DNA of 27,091 nucleotides, from IMG/VR virus record IMGVR_UViG_3300035698_003501, positions 1 to 27,091 of that record. One strand, given 5' to 3'. Below are positions 5,196 to 18,121 of this stretch, piece after piece (the first letter of the stretch is position 1; the number at the start of each line of letters is the position of its first letter). The position numbers and the translations under genes were made by a program. Source of the stretch: a virus. The notes beneath the pieces were generated by a model. The model was not told the DNA's origin. It made no database searches and saw only the letters and a list, made by a program, of their open reading frames with translations.

Positions 5196-5344
5196 AATAA
5201 TTAAAGGTTGGAAAACTTATAAAGGGGTATAAGTCTAGGTACGCATAAAAAATTAAATTACAATAAATATCAAATAAATTTTTTAATGTATTCGATTTTT
5301 AGTATATTAAAGATAATCTTTAACACATAACTAACAAATAGAGA
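5196..5344. promoter_or_regulatory. Divergent promoter region between the two gene blocks
   Basis: These 149 very AT-rich bases lie between the minus-strand operon (start 5195) and the plus-strand block (start 5345) and must hold or adjoin promoters for both. I could not place a Bacteroidota-type TTTG/TAnnTTTG promoter with confidence. A 17-bp inverted repeat is at 5307-5323. Confidence 0.5.
5307..5323. promoter_or_regulatory. Operator-like palindrome before the winged-helix gene
   Basis: TTAAAGA and TCTTTAA flank TAA, forming a perfect inverted repeat 22 bases before the ATG at 5345. It could be the binding site of the winged-helix-like protein encoded just downstream (autoregulation), which is a common arrangement. 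Binding itself is inference. Confidence 0.45.
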
Positions 5345-5695
5345 ATGGTCAAATTTAAAACAGAATTAGAAGATAGGAAGTTATACTTATTTTTATTACG
5401 TTTGTATGGAGTAGATAGCTCACCGTTAACAGAGCGTGAAGAGCAGCTGGGAAGTTACCTGTTGTCTTCAGAAAAGTATCCTTTTTCGGGTAGAGGAAGG
5501 AGAGCAATTATAAAGGAAATGAATATTACTTCAGCAAACTTTTCGATTCTGTTAAACGGACTAACTAAGAAAAAGGTGATAATCAAAAGTGATGACCACA
5601 ATGATTACTCTTTTAGTCCATATTTCGATCACTTTAAGAAACTTTGGATTTCTAATAATAAAATAGAATTAGGTTATATAATTAATAAAAAATAA
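5345..5695 (+). CDS. Winged-helix-like regulatory protein (116 aa)
   Basis: After an N-terminal helical stretch, residues about 27-80 look like a helix-turn-helix with a wing: LTEREEQLGSYLLSS (helix), RRAIIKEMNITSANFSILLN (helix, turn, recognition helix) and TKKKVIIKSDDHNDYSFSPY (wing strands). The arrangement resembles MarR-like or plasmid-replication-type winged helices. It is the first gene of the plus-strand block, next to the divergent promoter region and an inverted repeat, so a transcriptional regulator of one or both blocks is likely. It overlaps the next gene by one base (TAATG). Confidence 0.6.
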   Translation: MVKFKTELEDRKLYLFLLRLYGVDSSPLTEREEQLGSYLLSSEKYPFSGRGRRAIIKEMNITSANFSILLNGLTKKKVIIKSDDHNDYSFSPYFDHFKKLWISNNKIELGYIINKK

Positions 5696-5889
5696 TGAGA
5701 GCATACACATACATCATGTACGTACAGCCGGAAAATACAGATAATACTTTTTTAATCACTCCTACTCCTAGACTTATTCTAGCAAGTAGCTTAGAAAAAG
5801 CAAAAACACAAGCAATAATTGCAGAACACATAGGTCTTAAAGATCTTAATATAGATGATATAACTATTGAAGTAAGACTTTTTCTCTAG
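5695..5889 (+). CDS. Hypothetical protein, 64 aa, likely N-terminal part of a frameshifted product
   Basis: The frame begins MRAYTYIMYVQPENTDNTFL and ends IEVRLFL at a TAG. Strand-helix order (YIMYVQ; ASSLEKAKTQAIIAEHIG; DITIEVRLF) looks like a small alpha/beta domain. The next 70 codons have no start codon but are open in the -1 frame, and that frame ends exactly at the GTG start of the next gene. The tract CTTTTTC at 5878-5884 just before the stop would allow a slip or a miscounted homopolymer. Either this ORF is complete alone or it is the first part of a 5695-6095 protein. Confidence 0.6.
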   Translation: MRAYTYIMYVQPENTDNTFLITPTPRLILASSLEKAKTQAIIAEHIGLKDLNIDDITIEVRLFL

Positions 5890-6095
5890 AGACCGACTAT
5901 GATTCTGACTACTGGACTATAGTAGAAGATATCGTAGAGGAGGAAGAAGGTTGGTCAGCAGTATATAATCCATTAAATATTACGCATACAGCATGGGATG
6001 ACTCAGTAACAGTAAATTCAGCAACGACATCAAATCAAGTTTTAACTGTTAATAGTAAGACAGCATCCTTAACATGGACAGATCCTTGTGAATGA
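5871..6095 (+). pseudogene. Continuation of 5695 gene in -1 frame (frameshift or broken)
   Basis: This frame opens after a TGA at 5868-5870 and ends with TGA at 6093-6095. It has no ATG, GTG or TTG start that fits. The translation (LETDYDSDYWTIVEDIVEEE, then GWSAVYNPLNITHTAWDDS and a Thr/Ser/Val-rich end with TWTDPCE) looks like real protein: an acidic helical part and a beta-rich part. Its stop overlaps the next gene's start as GTGAATGA, as expected if ribosomes reach it. Explanations are programmed -1 frameshifting, a one-base deletion in a T-run (real or assembly error), or a decayed gene. Confidence 0.5.
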
Positions 6096-6342
6096 ACTAA
6101 TTAAAAGTGTGTACAATGTCTATGGTTTAACAAGAGCCATAGATAGTTGTTTAGAACAATTAAAAACCCAGGATGATTATGATTTATTTAGAGAAGCAAT
6201 TGAACCTGGTGGAATGCTCCAAGCCCTTGTTAAAGCAGCGGCACATGCAGCAGATAAAAACGCAATTGCAGAGATAGAACACTATATAGAAGTTGAACAG
6301 TTTCAAGATTCTATCCATTGGGAAGATGAACAAGTATTATAA
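6088..6342 (+). CDS. Hypothetical protein (84 aa), GTG start
   Basis: The start is a GTG at 6088 that overlaps the upstream TGA (GTGAATGA); no ATG exists in this frame upstream after the stop at 6070-6072, and the next ATG would remove most of the protein. The product is helical and acidic (YGLTRAIDSCLEQLKTQDDY; MLQALVKAAAHAADKNAIAE), soluble, with no recognised motif. The last 17 bases overlap the HU/IHF-like gene. The coupled GTG start suggests it depends on translation of the frame upstream. Confidence 0.6.
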   Translation: MNELIKSVYNVYGLTRAIDSCLEQLKTQDDYDLFREAIEPGGMLQALVKAAAHAADKNAIAEIEHYIEVEQFQDSIHWEDEQVL

Positions 6343-7085: not shown

Positions 7086-7695
7086 TTATATTATTCAAGA
7101 TAAAGAGGACAGAGCTAATTCCCTGGGAGAACCCAGGGATCAGCACTTTATCCAGAATGATGACCAAGACGGTGCGCCAGGGCTCCTAATACCTGAGACA
7201 GAAAGACTGAAAGATATTTACAAACTGCAAGAAAGAGAGATACAAATGGCTCATGCTTTCAACAAAGGCATCGGAGTATTGGATGAGAGATACTCTACAC
7301 AAATTAGTCCTACTAATGGCAAAATGATTGTTAGGGCCTATGTTGTTGATCCAGTAAACGATGATGGAGTATTTGTAGGATTCGGTTCTATATTCGTACC
7401 CGCTAAAGGGAATGAGTACAAAAGTAACGAAATACCCAACCCTCTCCCGTTTCAGATTAGAGCAGTAATTGTCAATGTGGCAGACGGTATTACAGATTTC
7501 TCAGTTGGTCAAGAAGTCCAATTGAATCCTAGTGTTATCGCACTACGACCTGTAAGAGGTACTGAGAGCCTCATGTGTGACAAAATGTTTGAGAGGTATG
7601 ATTCCTCATTTGACCATAATAATCCTTATGAACACTTTGGCTATCTTATGATTAGACCAGGCGACATTGAGTGTAAACTTAATGCAAGTGAATAA
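7060..7695 (+). CDS. GroES-like co-chaperonin with N-terminal extension (211 aa)
   Basis: Residues 86-210 fit the chaperonin-10 fold of GroES and T4 gp31. GKMIVRAYVVDP aligns with the first GroES strand. A loop region GFGSIFVPAKGN carries Ile-Phe-Val where the GroES mobile loop has Ile-Val-Leu. RAVIVNVADGITDFSVGQEV aligns with GroES RGEVLAVGNGR...VKVGDIV, and the end GYLMIRPGDIECKLN matches GroES EVLIMSESDILAIVE. The first 85 residues are extra, charged and partly helical (LKDIYKLQEREIQMAHAF). In the family this protein caps GroEL and closes the folding chamber. A GroEL gene lies 1.3 kb downstream, which supports the call. An alternative start is the ATG at 7078 (ATGAATGA with the upstream stop). 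Confidence 0.65.
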   Translation: MASEKTMNDYIIQDKEDRANSLGEPRDQHFIQNDDQDGAPGLLIPETERLKDIYKLQEREIQMAHAFNKGIGVLDERYSTQISPTNGKMIVRAYVVDPVNDDGVFVGFGSIFVPAKGNEYKSNEIPNPLPFQIRAVIVNVADGITDFSVGQEVQLNPSVIALRPVRGTESLMCDKMFERYDSSFDHNNPYEHFGYLMIRPGDIECKLNASE

Positions 7696-7709
7696 AGGAA
7701 CAACTTCAG

Positions 7710-7731
7710 AGCGAACTCTTATCGGTTCGCT
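7710..7731 (+). terminator. Hairpin between GroES-like gene and tRNA-like element
   Basis: AGCGAAC and GTTCGCT (7 bp) flank an 8-base loop and are followed by only three T. It may be a weak terminator or a signal for RNA processing before the tRNA-like element 10 bases downstream. Confidence 0.4.
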
Positions 7732-7741
7732 TTGGATACTA

Positions 7742-7814
7742 GCTTCGGTAGCTCAACTGGTAGAGCACACAGACTAATTTTCTGTGTATAGCGGTTCAAG
7801 TCCGTTCCTTAGCA
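7742..7814 (+). tRNA. Degenerate tRNA-like element
   Basis: The segment has exact tRNA length (73 bases, then CC) with a standard D arm (GCTC/GAGC, loop AACTGGTA) and T arm (AGCGG-TTCAAGT-CCGTT). The acceptor stem GCTTCGG/CCTTAGC has two internal mismatches. The anticodon arm is out of register: CACAG pairs with CTGTG around a 9-base loop, or a longer stem leaves CTAATTT. The anticodon therefore cannot be read safely (AAU or UAA are possible). It is tRNA-derived but may not be charged. Confidence 0.55.
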
Positions 7815-7828
7815 CCTAATTAAGTATT

Positions 7829-8302
7829 ATGATTATACCAAATACAAAAGGAAAACTTCGTAGAAACGAAGAGATAGATTCTAAATATGTTACACTCGTT
7901 GAAGCCTACGGTGAAGTGATCGAACCTCCCAAGACTGAAGATAGAATAGACTTGATTATGCCAAAAGGCGTTAATCTAGTGGAGATAGAGCTCAGAGGAG
8001 ACACTTCAATTTGTGGCATATTTAAAGAAGAAACCGCCAAATTCAATGTGATCAACATGTTTAAAGTAGCAGACTCTGTTATTAACATGTCCAAAGAAAA
8101 GGCTGGTTTACTACCATTGCATATGGTAGAACAGTTCGATTTTAGAAAAAAGGTATGCAAACCTTGTTTAGACAATGGTAGCTGTTTAGTTTGTGGATGC
8201 GAGACCCCTGGGCGACTCTACTCAAGAACTAAATGTGCTGGCGATAAATACCCTGCTCTTTTAGATAAGGAGGAGTGGGAAAAATTCCAAAACGTTCTTT
8301 GA
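7829..8302 (+). CDS. Protein with C-terminal zinc-ribbon-like cysteines (157 aa)
   Basis: The N-terminal two thirds look alpha/beta (KYVTLVEAYGEVIEPP; VNLVEIELRGDTSICGIFKE), with a helical part (FNVINMFKVADSVINMSKEK). Near residues 109-137 come C-K-P-C, then a short loop, C-L-V-C-G-C and one more Cys (TKCAGDKYP), consistent with one zinc site and possibly more. The ending LLDKEEWEKFQNVL is helical. I recall similar cysteine-rich ends in phage proteins but cannot name a family. It lies between two tRNA-like elements and between the GroES-like and GroEL genes. A link to chaperone work is only positional. Confidence 0.7.
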   Translation: MIIPNTKGKLRRNEEIDSKYVTLVEAYGEVIEPPKTEDRIDLIMPKGVNLVEIELRGDTSICGIFKEETAKFNVINMFKVADSVINMSKEKAGLLPLHMVEQFDFRKKVCKPCLDNGSCLVCGCETPGRLYSRTKCAGDKYPALLDKEEWEKFQNVL

Positions 8303-8304
8303 TC

Positions 8305-8346
8305 TTCAATATTTTATCATCTTCGTGGTTGAAGAGGATTATTGAA
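8305..8346 (+). promoter_or_regulatory. Two-tier stem-loop after the zinc-ribbon gene
   Basis: Outer arms TTCAATA/TATTGAA (7 bp) and inner arms ATCATCTTC/GAAGAGGAT (8 of 9 pairs) form a long hairpin with a 6-base loop, separated by four unpaired T on one side. No T-run follows, so processing or mRNA stability is more likely than termination. It starts 3 bases after the stop codon at 8302. Confidence 0.5.
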
Positions 8347-8367
8347 ACATGATTAGAGTTTTTGGTT

Positions 8368-8437
8368 AGAAGTGAAGCATAGTGCGCGATGCCCTGAACA
8401 GGAGGTCAGGAGGTGGTTTCGATCCCCACCACTTCTA
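8368..8437 (+). tRNA. Second tRNA-like element, abnormal anticodon arm
   Basis: Perfect acceptor arms AGAAGTG/CACTTCT, a D-like arm GCAT/ATGC with an 8-base loop, and a T arm with TTCGATC loop (GTGGT/CCCAC, one mismatch) are present. The middle arm CCTGA/TCAGG closes an 8-base loop that has no U, so no normal anticodon with U33 can be read, and the variable region is only two bases. Total 70 bases, then CAA. It is a degenerate tRNA or tRNA-like structure. Confidence 0.45.
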
Positions 8438-8450
8438 CAAACTTATAGAT

Positions 8451-9026
8451 ATGGATAACAAAATATTTACAATAATAGATAACAAACCTCGTGTTACAGC
8501 TGAGGGGCTTAATATACCAGAGTTTAAAAAAATATGGTATAATGATAAAGAAGGTAAGTCAAAGTGGACAGCTCAAGGAGAACTAGCATATATTTTTCAT
8601 ATGCTAGATCCAGAATCCAGTTATGCTAACCTTGCTGAAGACGCTAAAGAGTTAACCATTATTCAGGACTTTATTCCTAAATTAAAACAGGGATATTGGA
8701 AACCTAATGAATGGGTTGAAGCAGGTATGGCTAAGTATCTTAAATTAATAGATACTCCTGCTAGTAGAATGCTTAATTCTGCTAGAAAAATGGCTGATAA
8801 ATATGCTGATTATTTCGACAGTATCGACTTGCAAGAACGAGACGATGTGGGGAATATGGTAAACGATCCCTCCAAAATAATGTCTATCCTTGGTAAAATT
8901 CCTGATATGGTTAAATCCATTGCTGATCTTGAAGACCAAGTTAAGAAAGGAAATAGAGGAAGTGACATACACGTGCGAGGCAATAAAGAATTCAGTAAAT
9001 TATTTGACGACGTAGAATATGATTAA
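8451..9026 (+). CDS. Hypothetical phage protein upstream of GroEL (191 aa)
   Basis: I choose the ATG at 8451 (MDNKIFTIIDNKPRVTAEGL). The longer frame from 8382 would begin inside the tRNA-like element. A helical protein with the stretch KWTAQGELAYIFHMLDPESS (about residues 38-57), an Asp/Lys-rich middle, a helical part (LNSARKMADKYADYFDSIDL), and a C-terminal coiled-coil-like end (IPDMVKSIADLEDQVKKGNR) followed by an acidic tail. Helical, acidic-tailed proteins before large terminase genes may be small terminases or head proteins; nothing specific shows this. It overlaps the GroEL start by 8 bases. Confidence 0.7.
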   Translation: MDNKIFTIIDNKPRVTAEGLNIPEFKKIWYNDKEGKSKWTAQGELAYIFHMLDPESSYANLAEDAKELTIIQDFIPKLKQGYWKPNEWVEAGMAKYLKLIDTPASRMLNSARKMADKYADYFDSIDLQERDDVGNMVNDPSKIMSILGKIPDMVKSIADLEDQVKKGNRGSDIHVRGNKEFSKLFDDVEYD

Positions 9027-10581
9027 TTACGGAAACGAAGCAAGAAAACGACTCCTTAGTGGAGTTAACATTATAGATAAAACAGTTGCTACTACACTGG
9101 GGCCCAAAGGTCGAAATGTAGCAATCCAGAAAAATGACGGCGTACACGTTACAAAAGACGGTGTTACAGTGGCTAGTGCGGTGCACTCGGCAGATCCCGT
9201 TGAGATGATGGCAATTAATATGGTACGAGAAGCTGCTTCAAATACTGCTAAAGGCGCAGGAGACGGAACAACTACAGCTACCATCATTGCTAGTGAAATC
9301 ATCAGAGAAGGAATGAAGTATATTACTGCTGAACACTCTCCTATTGAGATAGTACGATCTATCGAGAAAGCTAGAGATATAGCATTAGAATCATTACCTA
9401 ACTTTACAACAGATATTAAAGATGAACAAATTAAAGCTATTGCTACTATTTCAGCAAATAATGATGCAGAAATAGGAGGACTTATTGCAGAAGCAATTCA
9501 AGCAGTAGGACGATATGGTATTATTACTGTGGAAGAATCAGAATCTATTCATACCAGTATTCAAGTAACTGAAGGCATGGAATTTGATAGAGGGTATATT
9601 TCTGCTAATTTTATTACTGATCAAGACAGTCTTACTTGTGAACTTCAGAATCCATATATTCTTATTTATAATAAGAAGATTACTCAGGTAAAAGAAGTAA
9701 CTCCGGCTATGGCTATTGCAGCTAGGAATGAGAGACCTCTCCTTATTATCTGTGATGGTATGGAAGGAAATGCTTTATCTACTGTAGTAGTAAACTCTGT
9801 CAGAGGAGTAGTACAATCATGTGTAGTAGAAGCTCCTGCTTACGGAGAAGTTCGTAAAGACTATCTTAGAGATATAGCTACCTTAACAGGTGGTAAATTT
9901 ATTGATACAGATGAGTCTATGAATATTACTAATATTAGTGAAGATCTATTAGGATCATGTTCATCAATAAAAATAGGACCCAACTCAACAGTACTTATTG
10001 AAGGAAATGGAGACAGAGACGCAATTCAAACACGAGCTGCGAGTCTTCGTAAATCAATCGAATTAGAGAAATCACCTTATGAACAGAAAAAACTTAAAGA
10101 ACGATTGGGAAAGATTGATGGTGGAGCAGCTGTTATTAAAGTTGGAGCATCTAGCAGTATTGAACTAAAGGAGAAGCGAGACCGGATAGATGACGCATTG
10201 GGGGCGGCGAAAGCTGCAATTATTGAAGGAGTTATTCCAGGAGCTGGTTTTACTGGATTACGAATAGGAGAATGGGTAGATCGTTCATCTACTATCGGAA
10301 CTAAGATTCTTTCTAAGGCGTTGAAGAAACCATGTTATCAGATATTGATAAATGCAGGATTAGAACCTCATGTAATACTTACAGGCGAACCAGAAGATCC
10401 CACACTAAACGTCTATAATTCATTAACTGAAGAATGGGTAAATCCATGGGATGGTCTATTAGATCCATCTAAAGTATTAAGATTAGCTATTCAGAATGCC
10501 GTTTCGGTAGCGTCAATGATATTGACAACTGAATGTTTAATCTATAGCGATGAAGAACCAGACGAGGAACAAGCACGGTAA
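9019..10581 (+). CDS. groEL: GroEL-type chaperonin (520 aa)
   Basis: The protein aligns with bacterial GroEL over its whole length. The ATP site is intact: GPKGRN (28-33), TKDG with Asp47, GDGTTTAT (81-88) and DDALGAAKAA with Asp392, equivalent to E. coli Asp52, Asp87 and Asp398. The apical domain keeps the GroES and substrate-binding helices (RPLLIICDGMEGNALSTVVV) and RGYISANF. Differences: PGAG in place of the usual AGGG, and an acidic tail (EEPDEEQAR) with no Gly-Gly-Met repeats. It should form a ring chamber that folds phage proteins using ATP, probably with the GroES-like protein at 7060. Position just before terminase, portal and capsid suggests the substrates are virion proteins. It overlaps the terminase gene by 32 bases. 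Confidence 0.97.
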   Translation: MINYGNEARKRLLSGVNIIDKTVATTLGPKGRNVAIQKNDGVHVTKDGVTVASAVHSADPVEMMAINMVREAASNTAKGAGDGTTTATIIASEIIREGMKYITAEHSPIEIVRSIEKARDIALESLPNFTTDIKDEQIKAIATISANNDAEIGGLIAEAIQAVGRYGIITVEESESIHTSIQVTEGMEFDRGYISANFITDQDSLTCELQNPYILIYNKKITQVKEVTPAMAIAARNERPLLIICDGMEGNALSTVVVNSVRGVVQSCVVEAPAYGEVRKDYLRDIATLTGGKFIDTDESMNITNISEDLLGSCSSIKIGPNSTVLIEGNGDRDAIQTRAASLRKSIELEKSPYEQKKLKERLGKIDGGAAVIKVGASSSIELKEKRDRIDDALGAAKAAIIEGVIPGAGFTGLRIGEWVDRSSTIGTKILSKALKKPCYQILINAGLEPHVILTGEPEDPTLNVYNSLTEEWVNPWDGLLDPSKVLRLAIQNAVSVASMILTTECLIYSDEEPDEEQAR

Positions 10582-12883
10582 ATATGACCCTAAAGTAGCA
10601 AGAGTGTGGACTGATTACGAAAGTATTGCCACTTCTTATAGAGAACATATAGATCATAATATTTATGGCGAGCTAACTTCAATTGGCTTGAGAAATCCGG
10701 TTCGTAACCTCGAATGGGATTTTCTCTATTTTGAAGATTCTAGTGTGTTCTCTCCTGCTGCTAACTATTTTGCTACTACAAAAAAAGAATTAGGACGCGG
10801 AGAATATTGTCCCTTTTTAGAAGGAACCCTTAATCATTCTAAATGGTGGAAAGAAGAATGGAAAAGATGTAAAGAAGGATATGAAGTAGGTGGAGTATGG
10901 ATACCAGGAGAGTATTATTTTTACCTCAATTATTGTGTGATTACACGAGTCATTGATGAGAAAGAGGGAACAGTTGGGCAATTCTTTCCCCGATTCTTGA
11001 CCATGGATTTCTATTGGTTTCTAGAATTAGATGCTTGTGAAAACCCAGAACACGCTACAGATAAGCAAAATTTACCAGCAGCCAAGTCTAGACGACTCGG
11101 TTTCTCATATAAACAAGCTGGGGGCTGCGTACACAAGTTCTTTTTCTTTAGAGAGTCTACGTGTATCATTGGATCAGAGTATGGTGAAAAGGCCCGAAAC
11201 ACCTTTGAGATGGCTCTTACTATGATTGACTTTGTCAATGAACATACAGAGTTCAGAACACCTCTTGGGACAAGAAAAGTCTCTGATAACGGATGTATAG
11301 TTGTTGCCGGAGCGAAAGTAAGAGTGCGCGGAAAAGAGTTCTTCAAAGGAAGGAAGTCTCGCATAATCACTGTCTCGTTCCATAATAAACCCGATGCTGC
11401 AGCCGGTTACGGAGCAGTTCGAGTAATCTTTGAAGAGTCTGGCATGATTAAGCATTTTAAAAATGCTTGGGCGTTTACAGAACCTACTCTTAGATCTGGT
11501 GCTATTCGTAAAGGAATATGTATTGCGTTTGGTACAGGTGGTGACATGGATGGAAACACTAAAGACTTTGCCGAAGCAATGGCTGCTCCTGCAGCTAATA
11601 AATTCAGAGAGTACGATAACATTTATGAATACAGTGAACAAATACGTAAATCAGGATTATTCTTTGATGCATTATGGCTCCGAGAAGGGTCAACAATTAC
11701 ATTACTTGATGGATCAGTACATCAAGGTCTTGACATTAATGGAAACGCTATTAGATGGGTAGCAGAGTTATCACTTAATTCAGAAAGGATTAAGTCAAAA
11801 GATGCTGATAAAAAAACAAAGGCTACATTTCTTACTCAGAATTGTAAAACTCTTAGTGAAGCATTTTTAGTATTAGACGGGGCTGTGTTCCCTACTGATG
11901 AGATATTAGACAGAATTAATGTATTAAGAAACAATACAGCTACTTATAAGCCATATATTTCTGGTAACTTAGTAGATACTGAAACTGGAGTAAATTTTAA
12001 GCCAGACCAAGAAGGAAAACTTCATCCTATGGATTACTTCCCATTGACTGGGAATGAGAAGATGGAGGACCTTAAAGGATGTATGGTTCAATATTATGCT
12101 CCTGAAAGAATTAGTGGGGCAGTTCCTGATGACGCATATATAATAGGGCATGACCCTTATGCAGTAGAAGGCTCTGTTCATATTAATGCAGGCACCTCTT
12201 TAGGAGTAGCCTATGTTATGAGAACGAATAAATATATTAGAGAATTAGGATTACCAGGAGAAATTGTAGCAAGCTATATAGGTAGAGAACAAAGATCGGA
12301 TGATTATAATTATAACCTATATAAGCTATCTAAATATTATAATGCTCAGATAATGTTTGAGAATAACCGGGGGCAAGTCAAGCAATATTTCCAACATAAG
12401 CGGATGCTGCACAAATTATGTCAGCCGCCCGGACACATTATTGACAAGCACCTTAGCTCAAATTCTACATCAGCTACTCGTAAGTTTGGGTACACTACTG
12501 TAAATAAACACTTTAAAGAAGAGCTAATACGATACATCATAGACTGGATATTATCTCCAGCATTAGAAGGGGAAGGTAAACGATTACTCGATACTATAAA
12601 TGACGAAGCGCTATTACAGGAGATGGTTCGTTTTAATTTTGAGCACGGAAATTATGATAGGATAATGGCCCTTGTAGGATGCGTCCTATACTTAGAAAAT
12701 CACAAGATAGAACATACTGTAAAAGCAAAACCGAAACCATTGAGTTTCTTATCAAACAACTCTTATCTATTTGATCTAGACAAACTAAATTATGCAAACA
12801 AATATTCTAAAACACAAATTATCTCAAAGCCGCAAACTGGCAGACAAAGCCAAATGGGGTCGCCAATACATGGATTATATTAG
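10550..12883 (+). CDS. terL: Large terminase subunit (777 aa)
   Basis: The N-terminal ATPase has a deviant Walker A (AKSRRLGFSYK, about 178-188, with Phe where most P-loops have Lys), a Walker B-like strand RVIFEESG (291-298), and a coupling motif CIAFGTGGDMD (about 324-334). The C-terminal nuclease fits the RNase H fold: Asp535 in IIGHDPYAVEG, Glu604 in IMFENNRG and Asp703 in NYDRIMALVG. The protein would translocate and cut the genome at the portal during packaging. Its length is above the usual for TerL but within that of large phages. The start at 10550 lies within the end of groEL; the end overlaps the portal gene. Confidence 0.88.
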   Translation: MKNQTRNKHGKYDPKVARVWTDYESIATSYREHIDHNIYGELTSIGLRNPVRNLEWDFLYFEDSSVFSPAANYFATTKKELGRGEYCPFLEGTLNHSKWWKEEWKRCKEGYEVGGVWIPGEYYFYLNYCVITRVIDEKEGTVGQFFPRFLTMDFYWFLELDACENPEHATDKQNLPAAKSRRLGFSYKQAGGCVHKFFFFRESTCIIGSEYGEKARNTFEMALTMIDFVNEHTEFRTPLGTRKVSDNGCIVVAGAKVRVRGKEFFKGRKSRIITVSFHNKPDAAAGYGAVRVIFEESGMIKHFKNAWAFTEPTLRSGAIRKGICIAFGTGGDMDGNTKDFAEAMAAPAANKFREYDNIYEYSEQIRKSGLFFDALWLREGSTITLLDGSVHQGLDINGNAIRWVAELSLNSERIKSKDADKKTKATFLTQNCKTLSEAFLVLDGAVFPTDEILDRINVLRNNTATYKPYISGNLVDTETGVNFKPDQEGKLHPMDYFPLTGNEKMEDLKGCMVQYYAPERISGAVPDDAYIIGHDPYAVEGSVHINAGTSLGVAYVMRTNKYIRELGLPGEIVASYIGREQRSDDYNYNLYKLSKYYNAQIMFENNRGQVKQYFQHKRMLHKLCQPPGHIIDKHLSSNSTSATRKFGYTTVNKHFKEELIRYIIDWILSPALEGEGKRLLDTINDEALLQEMVRFNFEHGNYDRIMALVGCVLYLENHKIEHTVKAKPKPLSFLSNNSYLFDLDKLNYANKYSKTQIISKPQTGRQSQMGSPIHGLY

Positions 12884-15451: not shown

Positions 15452-16570
15452 ATGGATAATGGAAACTTTGATTTCGGATTCGAAATAGTAGTAGACGAGC
15501 AAGCTTTTGGCGGAGAGACCCTTACGGAACTCCCAGAAGGAGTAGAGTACGCTGAACTAGGAGATCTTACCCTAGAGCCAGTAGTTGATTCAGTCACCCC
15601 TGAAGACACAACGGTTGTTGTACCTGACGCTGATATTATAGACGATCCCGAAAAAGAAACAAAAGTAGAAGACGTAGTAGATACTACAGACTACACCGAT
15701 GTCTTTAAAGATCACTTCAAATTACTAAAGCAAGCAGGGCTTGTTTATAACGATGAATTAGAATTAGACGACACCGCTTCGAACTTTGAAGAAGTTCTTC
15801 AGCAAAACGAAGTAGCACGAAATCAAGCGGTCGCAAGGCAGTTGGTAGATGCTCTTCCAGAAAAACTTAGAGACATTGTAACTTATGGCCTATCAGGTGG
15901 GGACGACTTAGATAAGTTTTTTCAAACTGAAAGCCAAATTCAAGACTTAAATTTTAATCTTAGTGATCCTAATGAGCAAGAAGCAGTCGTAAGACAACAT
16001 CTAGCTTCCAAGGGAAACGATGATTTCGCAATTAATGCTATTGTAGATCGACTAAAAGATGATGATCGCCTTGCTACGCAAGCAACCACTTCTTTTAATG
16101 AGTTGAAAAACACTCTCGATCAAGAAAAACAATCTCTGCTCACACAACAAAAAGAACAGAAGCAGGTACGAGAACAAGGAATGCAAGAAAAGCATGAAGG
16201 CGTAGTCTCTTTTATTAAGGAACAAGATACATGGAATTCAACTGCTCAAGAGCAGGTTTACTCAATGATTTATCGTCCTGAACAAAAGTACGATGGTAAC
16301 TCTTATATTGGCGCAGTACTAAACAAGATATCCTCAACACCCGAGCAGCTTGTGCAATTCACTAAAATGATTACTGATCAATATGATTTTGAGAAAGGGT
16401 TTGACATACAAGGAAAACAAAAGGAGGCTAATAATCTGAAAAAGGGTTTACGTCAACAATTGGGATCTGTGTTACAAGCAAACACTACCTCACGGACATC
16501 AAGTGACAAACAAACAAAGACCATTGACTGGTCGAAAACAAACGTGGTCTTACCTTTCGGGTACGACTAA
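15452..16570 (+). CDS. Scaffold-like head assembly protein (372 aa)
   Basis: This gene lies between portal and capsid genes, the usual place for a scaffold. The protein is strongly acidic in its first 90 residues (Val/Asp/Glu/Thr-rich, low complexity). A helical middle follows (NEVARNQAVARQLVDALPEK), then a Gln/Lys/Glu-rich coiled coil near 225-255 (LDQEKQSLLTQQKEQKQ). A helical C-terminal part ends in KTIDWSKTNVVLPFGYD, which could dock on the capsid shell. Scaffolds often have this disordered, helical and charged form and a short C-terminal docking segment. No protease is visible. Function is inferred from place and composition. Confidence 0.65.
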   Translation: MDNGNFDFGFEIVVDEQAFGGETLTELPEGVEYAELGDLTLEPVVDSVTPEDTTVVVPDADIIDDPEKETKVEDVVDTTDYTDVFKDHFKLLKQAGLVYNDELELDDTASNFEEVLQQNEVARNQAVARQLVDALPEKLRDIVTYGLSGGDDLDKFFQTESQIQDLNFNLSDPNEQEAVVRQHLASKGNDDFAINAIVDRLKDDDRLATQATTSFNELKNTLDQEKQSLLTQQKEQKQVREQGMQEKHEGVVSFIKEQDTWNSTAQEQVYSMIYRPEQKYDGNSYIGAVLNKISSTPEQLVQFTKMITDQYDFEKGFDIQGKQKEANNLKKGLRQQLGSVLQANTTSRTSSDKQTKTIDWSKTNVVLPFGYD

Positions 16571-16585
16571 ACAACAAAACAAATA

Positions 16586-18121
16586 ATGACTAAATCGAAC
16601 GGACAATTAGCAGTCCAATACTACCAAGGCTTCGGTGGTAAATCTTTTGATTCCAATCACTATGCTGACGCGTTTAGAAGCAGTGCTCCGCACCACTTCG
16701 GAATGCAGGTATCAAAATTGTTCACTGCTATCAATAAGTACGAACATCGCGTACTTAACAATTTAACTTACGGACGCGGAATGTATGAAGTAATACAGGA
16801 CGATGTTTATAAGTGGACTATCGCTGGAGATTCTCTGGTAGAGTTCAGAATCACAGAGCTACTTGAATCAGGCAACAGTTACCCAGGTAAAGGAAACCAA
16901 GAGTTTCGTATTTCTTTGGATAAAGGTTGGATGGGCAAGCCAGTAATGATTCAATTCGAGGACAACCACATGCCTCGCGCACTCATCACGCAAGACCCAA
17001 TTAAAGTAGGTGATTCCTATTACTATACATTGAGACTGGAAACTGACGATCCTAACGTATGGCTCGACCCTGAGAACATCCAAGTAGGAAAAGTAGTTAT
17101 CGACGCAGGTACATTGATTCAAAATGAAATGAGTCAAGAAGCTGCTGGTGGATACTACGGATCTCAGATGGACCTCCAATGCCAGATTGGCGCAGTTGCT
17201 CGTGAATTTTCTGTAACCGACAAGGTAGTACGCAAAGAAATTGCTGCTAACAGAGAAAAGCGCAACTTAAATTCCGTTCCTAAAAATCAGCGTTCTAGCG
17301 AAGGCTGGGCATTTGCCATCCGTCAGGGTGACAAGATCGTTCCTCGTGGCGCATTCATCACTATGGCTGAAGCTCACTTATTGGAAATGACTGATATGGA
17401 TATGGAAACGTCTATGAAGTTTGGTAACAAGATGACCTATAACGATCCTACTACAGGATATGTTAAGAAGGCAGCTCCTGGGTGGAGACAACTTGTTAAG
17501 GACGGTCACGTTTTCTACAATAATGGTTCTTTGACAGCACAACAGCTCGAAGATTATCTCCACGGAATTTTCCTTCATAGGATTAATTCTAAGGGACGTA
17601 AAATTAAATTAGCTACTGGTGAAGGTGGTGTTCGTATGTTCCATCAGATTCTTTCTGATGAAGCAAATAGTTTCATGACTATTGACACAACATTTATCGG
17701 AAAAGCTTCTTCTCCATTCAATTCTAATGCTCTATCTTTCGGTGGACAGTTTACTAAGTTCATTGCAACTAATGGTATTGAAGTAGAATTGATCCTTGAC
17801 CCAATGGCGGACGATCCACATTGGTGTAAAGTTAAGCACCCAGATGATCCTAAGTTCACACGCGATTCTTTCCGTTTCGACATTTATGACTTTGGTGAAA
17901 CAATGGACATGGGCACTAACATGCGCATGGTTATTGAAGAAGGTGTAGACCTTTACGCATACGTTGCGAATGTAGTTGACCCTAAGACAGGTGTTGTAAA
18001 CGACGGAAGTCGTGTTGCAAGCTTTGATAAAGGAGTTGCTATTCGTCGTGAGCGTTCAGGATCACTATGGATTTATGATACTTCTCGTTGTGGTTCTATT
18101 ATCTACGATCCAGAGAACTAA
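16586..18121 (+). CDS. Major capsid protein candidate (511 aa)
   Basis: A 511-residue protein starting MTKSNGQLAVQYYQGFGGKS, placed after portal and scaffold genes. Size, position and well-behaved codon use with many C-ending codons (often seen in highly expressed genes) fit an HK97-fold major capsid protein. Visible features: the N-terminal arm, an E-loop-like Gly/Tyr/Lys region (ESGNSYPGKGNQEFRISLDK), a central alpha/beta part, and a C-terminal part with LIDPMADD-like (ILDPMADDPHWCKVK) and DTSRCGSIIYDPEN ends. The fold cannot be proved from sequence by eye. It is a likely client of the phage chaperonin. Confidence 0.8.
   Translation: MTKSNGQLAVQYYQGFGGKSFDSNHYADAFRSSAPHHFGMQVSKLFTAINKYEHRVLNNLTYGRGMYEVIQDDVYKWTIAGDSLVEFRITELLESGNSYPGKGNQEFRISLDKGWMGKPVMIQFEDNHMPRALITQDPIKVGDSYYYTLRLETDDPNVWLDPENIQVGKVVIDAGTLIQNEMSQEAAGGYYGSQMDLQCQIGAVAREFSVTDKVVRKEIAANREKRNLNSVPKNQRSSEGWAFAIRQGDKIVPRGAFITMAEAHLLEMTDMDMETSMKFGNKMTYNDPTTGYVKKAAPGWRQLVKDGHVFYNNGSLTAQQLEDYLHGIFLHRINSKGRKIKLATGEGGVRMFHQILSDEANSFMTIDTTFIGKASSPFNSNALSFGGQFTKFIATNGIEVELILDPMADDPHWCKVKHPDDPKFTRDSFRFDIYDFGETMDMGTNMRMVIEEGVDLYAYVANVVDPKTGVVNDGSRVASFDKGVAIRRERSGSLWIYDTSRCGSIIYDPEN

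Follow-up and report, generated by a model that had tools for sequence, protein, structure and literature searches.

A candidate −1 programmed ribosomal frameshift at the end of a small gene in a crAss-like phage

The g2 locus and its genomic setting

The window analysed here is the whole 27,091-base stretch of IMG/VR virus record IMGVR_UViG_3300035698_003501, from an uncultured crAss-like phage contig. PHROG matches to a terminase, a portal and a major head protein, together with tblastn matches of the terminase to gut crAss-like genomes at <30% identity, place the window among the crAss-like phages (Crassvirales). An IHF subunit inside the structural block has been described as a signature of these phages (PMC7886860), and the window carries an IHF-like gene in that position alongside the group's terminase, portal and head proteins. 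The product of this IHF/HU-like gene has a weak Pfam match (Bac_DNA_binding, E 0.003), and genes related to it occur near the terminase in other crAss-like loci.

The relative used for comparison, L004 (IMGVR_UViG_3300034418_006779), is a 109 kb contig from a different dataset, with a terminase 81% identical to that of the window and a nucleotide identity of about 70–77% over longer alignments; apart from L004 and its near-copies, environmental relatives have terminases at most 45% identical to that of the window. The gene under study, g2, sits at the start of a rightward block comprising g1, g2, g3, the IHF/HU-like gene, further small genes, a GroEL-like chaperonin, the terminase, and the portal, and the gene order around g2 is the same in L004. 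The features of the locus are as follows.

5345–5695, + strand: g1, upstream gene, 116 aa, 72% identical in L004; its TAA overlaps the g2 ATG (TAATG)
5695–5889, + strand: g2, 0-frame ORF, 64 aa, ATG start; orthologue in L004 at 5301–5486
5871–6095, + strand: open, start-less −1 frame (open 5871–6092, TGA 6093–6095), which would add 70 residues after Phe63
5878–5884, + strand: putative slip site CTTTTTC, codons CTT TTT CTC TAG
5887–5889, + strand: 0-frame stop TAG of g2, also TAG in L004
5891–5956, + strand: possible hairpin 7 nt after the slip site, −20.2 kcal/mol, z −1.2, 22 of 200 shuffles as stable, not significant
6088–6095, + strand: overlap GTGAATGA of the g3 start and the −1 frame stop; the L004 junction reads ATGGACTTAA
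6088–6342, + strand: g3, downstream gene, 84 aa, GTG start, 43% identical in L004
6326–6634, + strand: IHF/HU-like gene, 102 aa, 75% identical in L004

Searches with g1, the IHF-like gene, g6, the GroEL-like gene, and the terminase identified L004 as the one relative covering the junction, with none found among genome contigs. Among the crAss-like phages g2 was found in L004 only, and not in the ~80 more distant crAss-like loci searched, though its IHF-like neighbour was found there.

Several other features of the window were observed further downstream. The GroEL-like chaperonin (9019–10581), directly upstream of the terminase, matches the PHROG chaperonin family (E 7e-137) and Pfam Cpn60_TCP1 (E 3e-55). 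A 157-aa protein (7829–8302) combines a start resembling the IF3 N-terminal domain (Pfam E 1e-4, under the curated cut-off) with a part matching phrog_13610, a phage family of unknown function. ARAGORN calls a tRNA-Ile gene at 7742–7816 with the anticodon AAT, which is unusual for a bacterial or phage tRNA-Ile. As called, the terminase and portal ORFs share 92 nt (12792–12883), and the real portal start may lie further downstream.

The g2 product and the reading frame beyond its stop

An earlier note, made from the letters of the window, described g2 as a 64-codon ORF with its stop at 5889, and these coordinates hold. The short product, with the C-terminus ...IEVRLFL, is predicted by AlphaFold2 (two-sequence alignment) to fold as a compact beta-beta-alpha-beta domain with a mean pLDDT of 80 and a pTM of 0.66. 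The last predicted strand, residues 56–62, ends at the VRLF residues, and the 64-aa product is therefore probably a finished small domain by itself, with the −1 frame appending a separate tail. A complete short domain is what is expected if both products are used. Neither g2 nor the fused protein has a homologue above chance in Pfam, PHROGs, or the phage collection; a single E. coli phage match was dismissed as chance, lying antisense to the genes of that phage. The fold search with the g2 domain returned nothing below E 0.001, only unnamed small (~60-aa) phage proteins and weak ferredoxin-like matches, and no tie to the g2 locus was found for a 203-aa crAss-like protein among the matches.

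Past the TAG, the −1 frame is open and lacks ATG, GTG and TTG codons, as the earlier note had claimed, with the exact length being 68 codons past the TAG rather than the 65 given there. The claim that this frame ends upon the GTG of the next gene was borne out, with its TGA falling inside GTGAATGA, where the ORF 6088–6342 begins. Its supposed protein-like character is likewise evident from phage codon usage, the stretch 5883–6085 scoring +0.154 bits per codon compared with +0.152 for g2 and +0.18 for g3 (adjoining ORFs, +0.15 to +0.18), whereas the other forward frames over this stretch score about −0.2 and contain 7–9 stops. Following dinucleotide shuffling of the downstream stretch (n = 20,000), 0.37% of the shuffled sequences are open in the −1 frame, and none is both open and as high-scoring as the observed sequence. 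The gene-like score and the shuffles together argue that the open −1 frame of the window is not a product of chance. The tail that it would encode is acidic and lacks a recognised domain, and modelled by itself gives a pLDDT of 40 with no confident structure model.

Extensions of this kind are rare. Start-less −1 extensions of at least 40 codons follow 4 of the 992 gene ends in ~77 crAss-like loci, and that of g2 alone has a positive coding score. The window and L004 together have seven same-strand gaps of at least 60 nt; only the g2–g3 gap of each phage can be read across without a stop in some frame, and in both phages that frame is −1. No opposite-strand gene spans 5890–6090, and recoding of the TAG itself was rejected, with the 0-frame past the TAG being unrelated, stop-rich sequence in both phages; the window terminase likewise has a TAG stop, within a stretch already shared with the portal gene. 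In a separate contig (L081), two +1 frame continuations with coding-like scores were observed at 7637–10058 and 15511–16642, one of them within the terminase gene; these are probably contig indels, or an interrupted gene.

The putative slip site and its counterpart in L004

The motif CTTTTTC, noted earlier as lying shortly before the 0-frame stop, is present as described, and the proposed pairing of TTT on TTT is possible, with the A-site TTT at 5881–5883 able to re-pair with the TTT at 5880–5882 (tetramer T_TTT). The P-site does not allow re-pairing (CTT to ACT), leaving the A-site Phe-tRNA as the only one able to re-pair. In L004, the g2 orthologue encodes 61 aa ending in VRPF, followed by TAG, and the two proteins align over 58 aa, ungapped, up to the Phe of VR(P/L)F (z 7.7, 0 of 1000 shuffles). 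The end of the L004 gene reads GTG CGC CCT TTT TAG, such that a canonical heptamer, C_CCT_TTT, abuts the stop. A slippery sequence of the form X_XXZ_ZZN or Z_ZZN lies in the zone where both frames are open at the 0-frame stop in each phage; this zone spans 5871–5889 in the window, with the tetramer only, and 5399–5486 in L004, with the heptamer.

In E. coli, the tetramers U_UU.U and U_UU.C rank among those prone to shifting, the six best tetramers giving 0.26–5.6% with a pseudoknot, and H_HH.U_UU.Y heptamers, including C_CC.U_UU.U, are among the most efficient (PMC4066793). Judged by its sequence, the T_TTT site of the window is weaker than the L004 heptamer and of the low-efficiency class. 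Among 9,207 codon pairs in the large genes of both phages, 34 carry an in-frame XXXYYYZ heptamer and none carries CCCTTTT; the frequency of such heptamers is higher immediately ahead of stops (12 of 438 large ORFs), and T_TTY is seldom found within the final two sense codons (2 of 438). No downstream stimulatory structure is significant against shuffles, with z between −1.2 and −1.7 in the window and between −1.3 and +1.7 in L004, and the junction has no Rfam match to a known RNA family. A stimulatory structure downstream, or an SD-like element upstream, is frequent at −1 frameshift sites but is not a requirement.

The layout beyond the stop is also matched in L004, with the −1 frame alone open from the slip site to a TAA at 5615–5617, inside the first codons of g3 (ATG at 5608). 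The L004 tail has a weak coding score of −0.05 per codon, and 2.4% of its shuffles are open, giving a joint shuffle chance for both −1 frames being open of 0.0037 × 0.024, or ~9 in 100,000, before allowing for the gaps and frames examined. No similarity was detected between the tails of the two phages (z −0.2 local, 0.8 global). With tails that do not align and an L004 tail that is weakly coding, L004 is evidence for a conserved layout and site, and not for a conserved tail protein. The earlier note had looked to related phages for a single uninterrupted ORF, or else for two genes each with its own start; neither arrangement was seen, the sole relative having the same break as the window.

Proposed frameshifting, its rivals, and its relation to known systems

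On comparison of the two sequences, −1 programmed ribosomal frameshifting at the end of g2 is the best explanation of these observations, and one that we consider reasonably probable. This reading, favoured by the earlier note, gains partial support from the layout and from the canonical site in L004; slippage itself is inferred. Most ribosomes would translate g2 to the TAG, releasing the 64-aa protein, while a minority with Phe-tRNA on the TTT at 5881–5883 would move back by one base on the T run, pair again with the TTT at 5880–5882, and read the −1 frame (...VRLF-SLETDYDSDYW...) up to the TGA at 6093. The fused product would be ~133 aa in length, consisting of the same small domain and an acidic C-terminal tail whose frame has no start codon. 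As termination at 6093–6095 would fall on the GTG of g3, ribosomes completing the fused product may also feed g3 through coupled re-initiation.

It is rather unlikely, in our assessment, that g2 is simply a complete gene of 61–64 aa stopping at the TAG, with the −1 frame an untranslated chance sequence or the decaying remnant of a gene that meets the g3 start by coincidence. The prediction of a whole domain for the short product, the conservation of its end in L004, the failure of the tails to align, and the weakly coding L004 tail are all consistent with such a gene, as is the presence of ~60-aa phage proteins, none below E 0.001, among its structural look-alikes. However, the codon usage of the window tail is fully that of a gene (0 of 20,000 shuffles), only the −1 frame and only this gap are open through in both phages, and the canonical heptamer lies exactly at the L004 stop.

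The competing reading offered by the earlier note, in which a gene that is truly or ancestrally in one frame was broken in the window by a one-base assembly error or a real indel, is weakened by the same break in L004, and we regard it as improbable. The break does fall at a homopolymer run, and the loss of one base from the pyrimidine run would account for the frame change as well as for the Leu found in place of the Pro of L004 (VRPF). However, in L004, which comes from a different dataset, the reading frame is interrupted at the homologous codon too, and shifts in the same direction. Because the position of the frame change coincides in the two phages, a pure assembly error is unlikely, since two independent errors would be needed. 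Furthermore, comparison of L004 with its near-copies L006 and L003, over stretches outside the junction, showed 3 substitutions and 0 gaps in 13.4 kb and no difference in 5.5 kb, suggesting that assembly indels are rare in L004, and the other large genes of the window are unbroken. More improbable still is separate translation of the −1 frame through re-initiation at a non-standard start after the TAG, or RNA polymerase slippage on the T run. Tight overlaps between the neighbouring genes, with probable translational coupling, are in keeping with re-initiation, yet with no start codon in the window −1 frame independent translation of the tail is hard to explain; L004 also lacks a −1 start near the stop, its first ATG lying ~23 codons in. 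For RNA polymerase to slip efficiently, a run of five T is short.

Frameshifting at g2 would resemble the phage −1 frameshifts that add a C-terminal extension, as in T7 gene 10A/10B and the coat proteins of T3 and Lactobacillus phage A2 (Ig-like tails), where the 0-frame product is self-complete and slippage near its stop codon appends a tail from the −1 frame. The T7 gene 10 motif uses a non-canonical X_XX (G_GU) (PMC5009743). In contrast to these coat proteins, the g2 product is a 64-aa protein with no assigned function, encoded next to an IHF-like gene, its tail is acidic with no recognised domain, and its slip is putative. The frameshift of the tail assembly chaperones (lambda G/GT type), common in tailed phages, is likewise a −1 shift towards the end of the first of two ORFs; however, the genes searched here gave no tail-chaperone or tape-measure match, with neither chaperone homology (no Pfam or PHROG match to g2) nor a place before a tape measure evident among its neighbours, which are g1, g3, the IHF-like gene, GroEL, terminase, and portal. 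The slip site of the window belongs to the same class as the U_UU.Y tetramers of IS1/IS3-family −1 frameshifting (PMC4066793), whilst g2 is not a transposase and has no significant stimulatory structure.

From its sequence, the g2 junction looks like a real case of a familiar type of recoding, and not a sequencing error, and it is plausible that it represents a new case of a well-known mechanism. A literature search, incomplete in coverage, found no comparable programmed frameshift reported for crAss-like phages, the crAss-like mention that it returned concerning disrupted RNA polymerase genes instead (PMC7886860). We suggest only tentatively that the frameshift device may be conserved across a genus-level group of environmental crAss-like phages, with a small conserved domain and fast-changing tails, the site and layout being kept while the tail sequence is replaced completely. 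If frameshifting at g2 is true, the annotation of these phages leaves out the C-terminal half of a late-region protein, and the few phage genes with −1 recoding would be joined by one that encodes neither a coat protein nor a tail chaperone.
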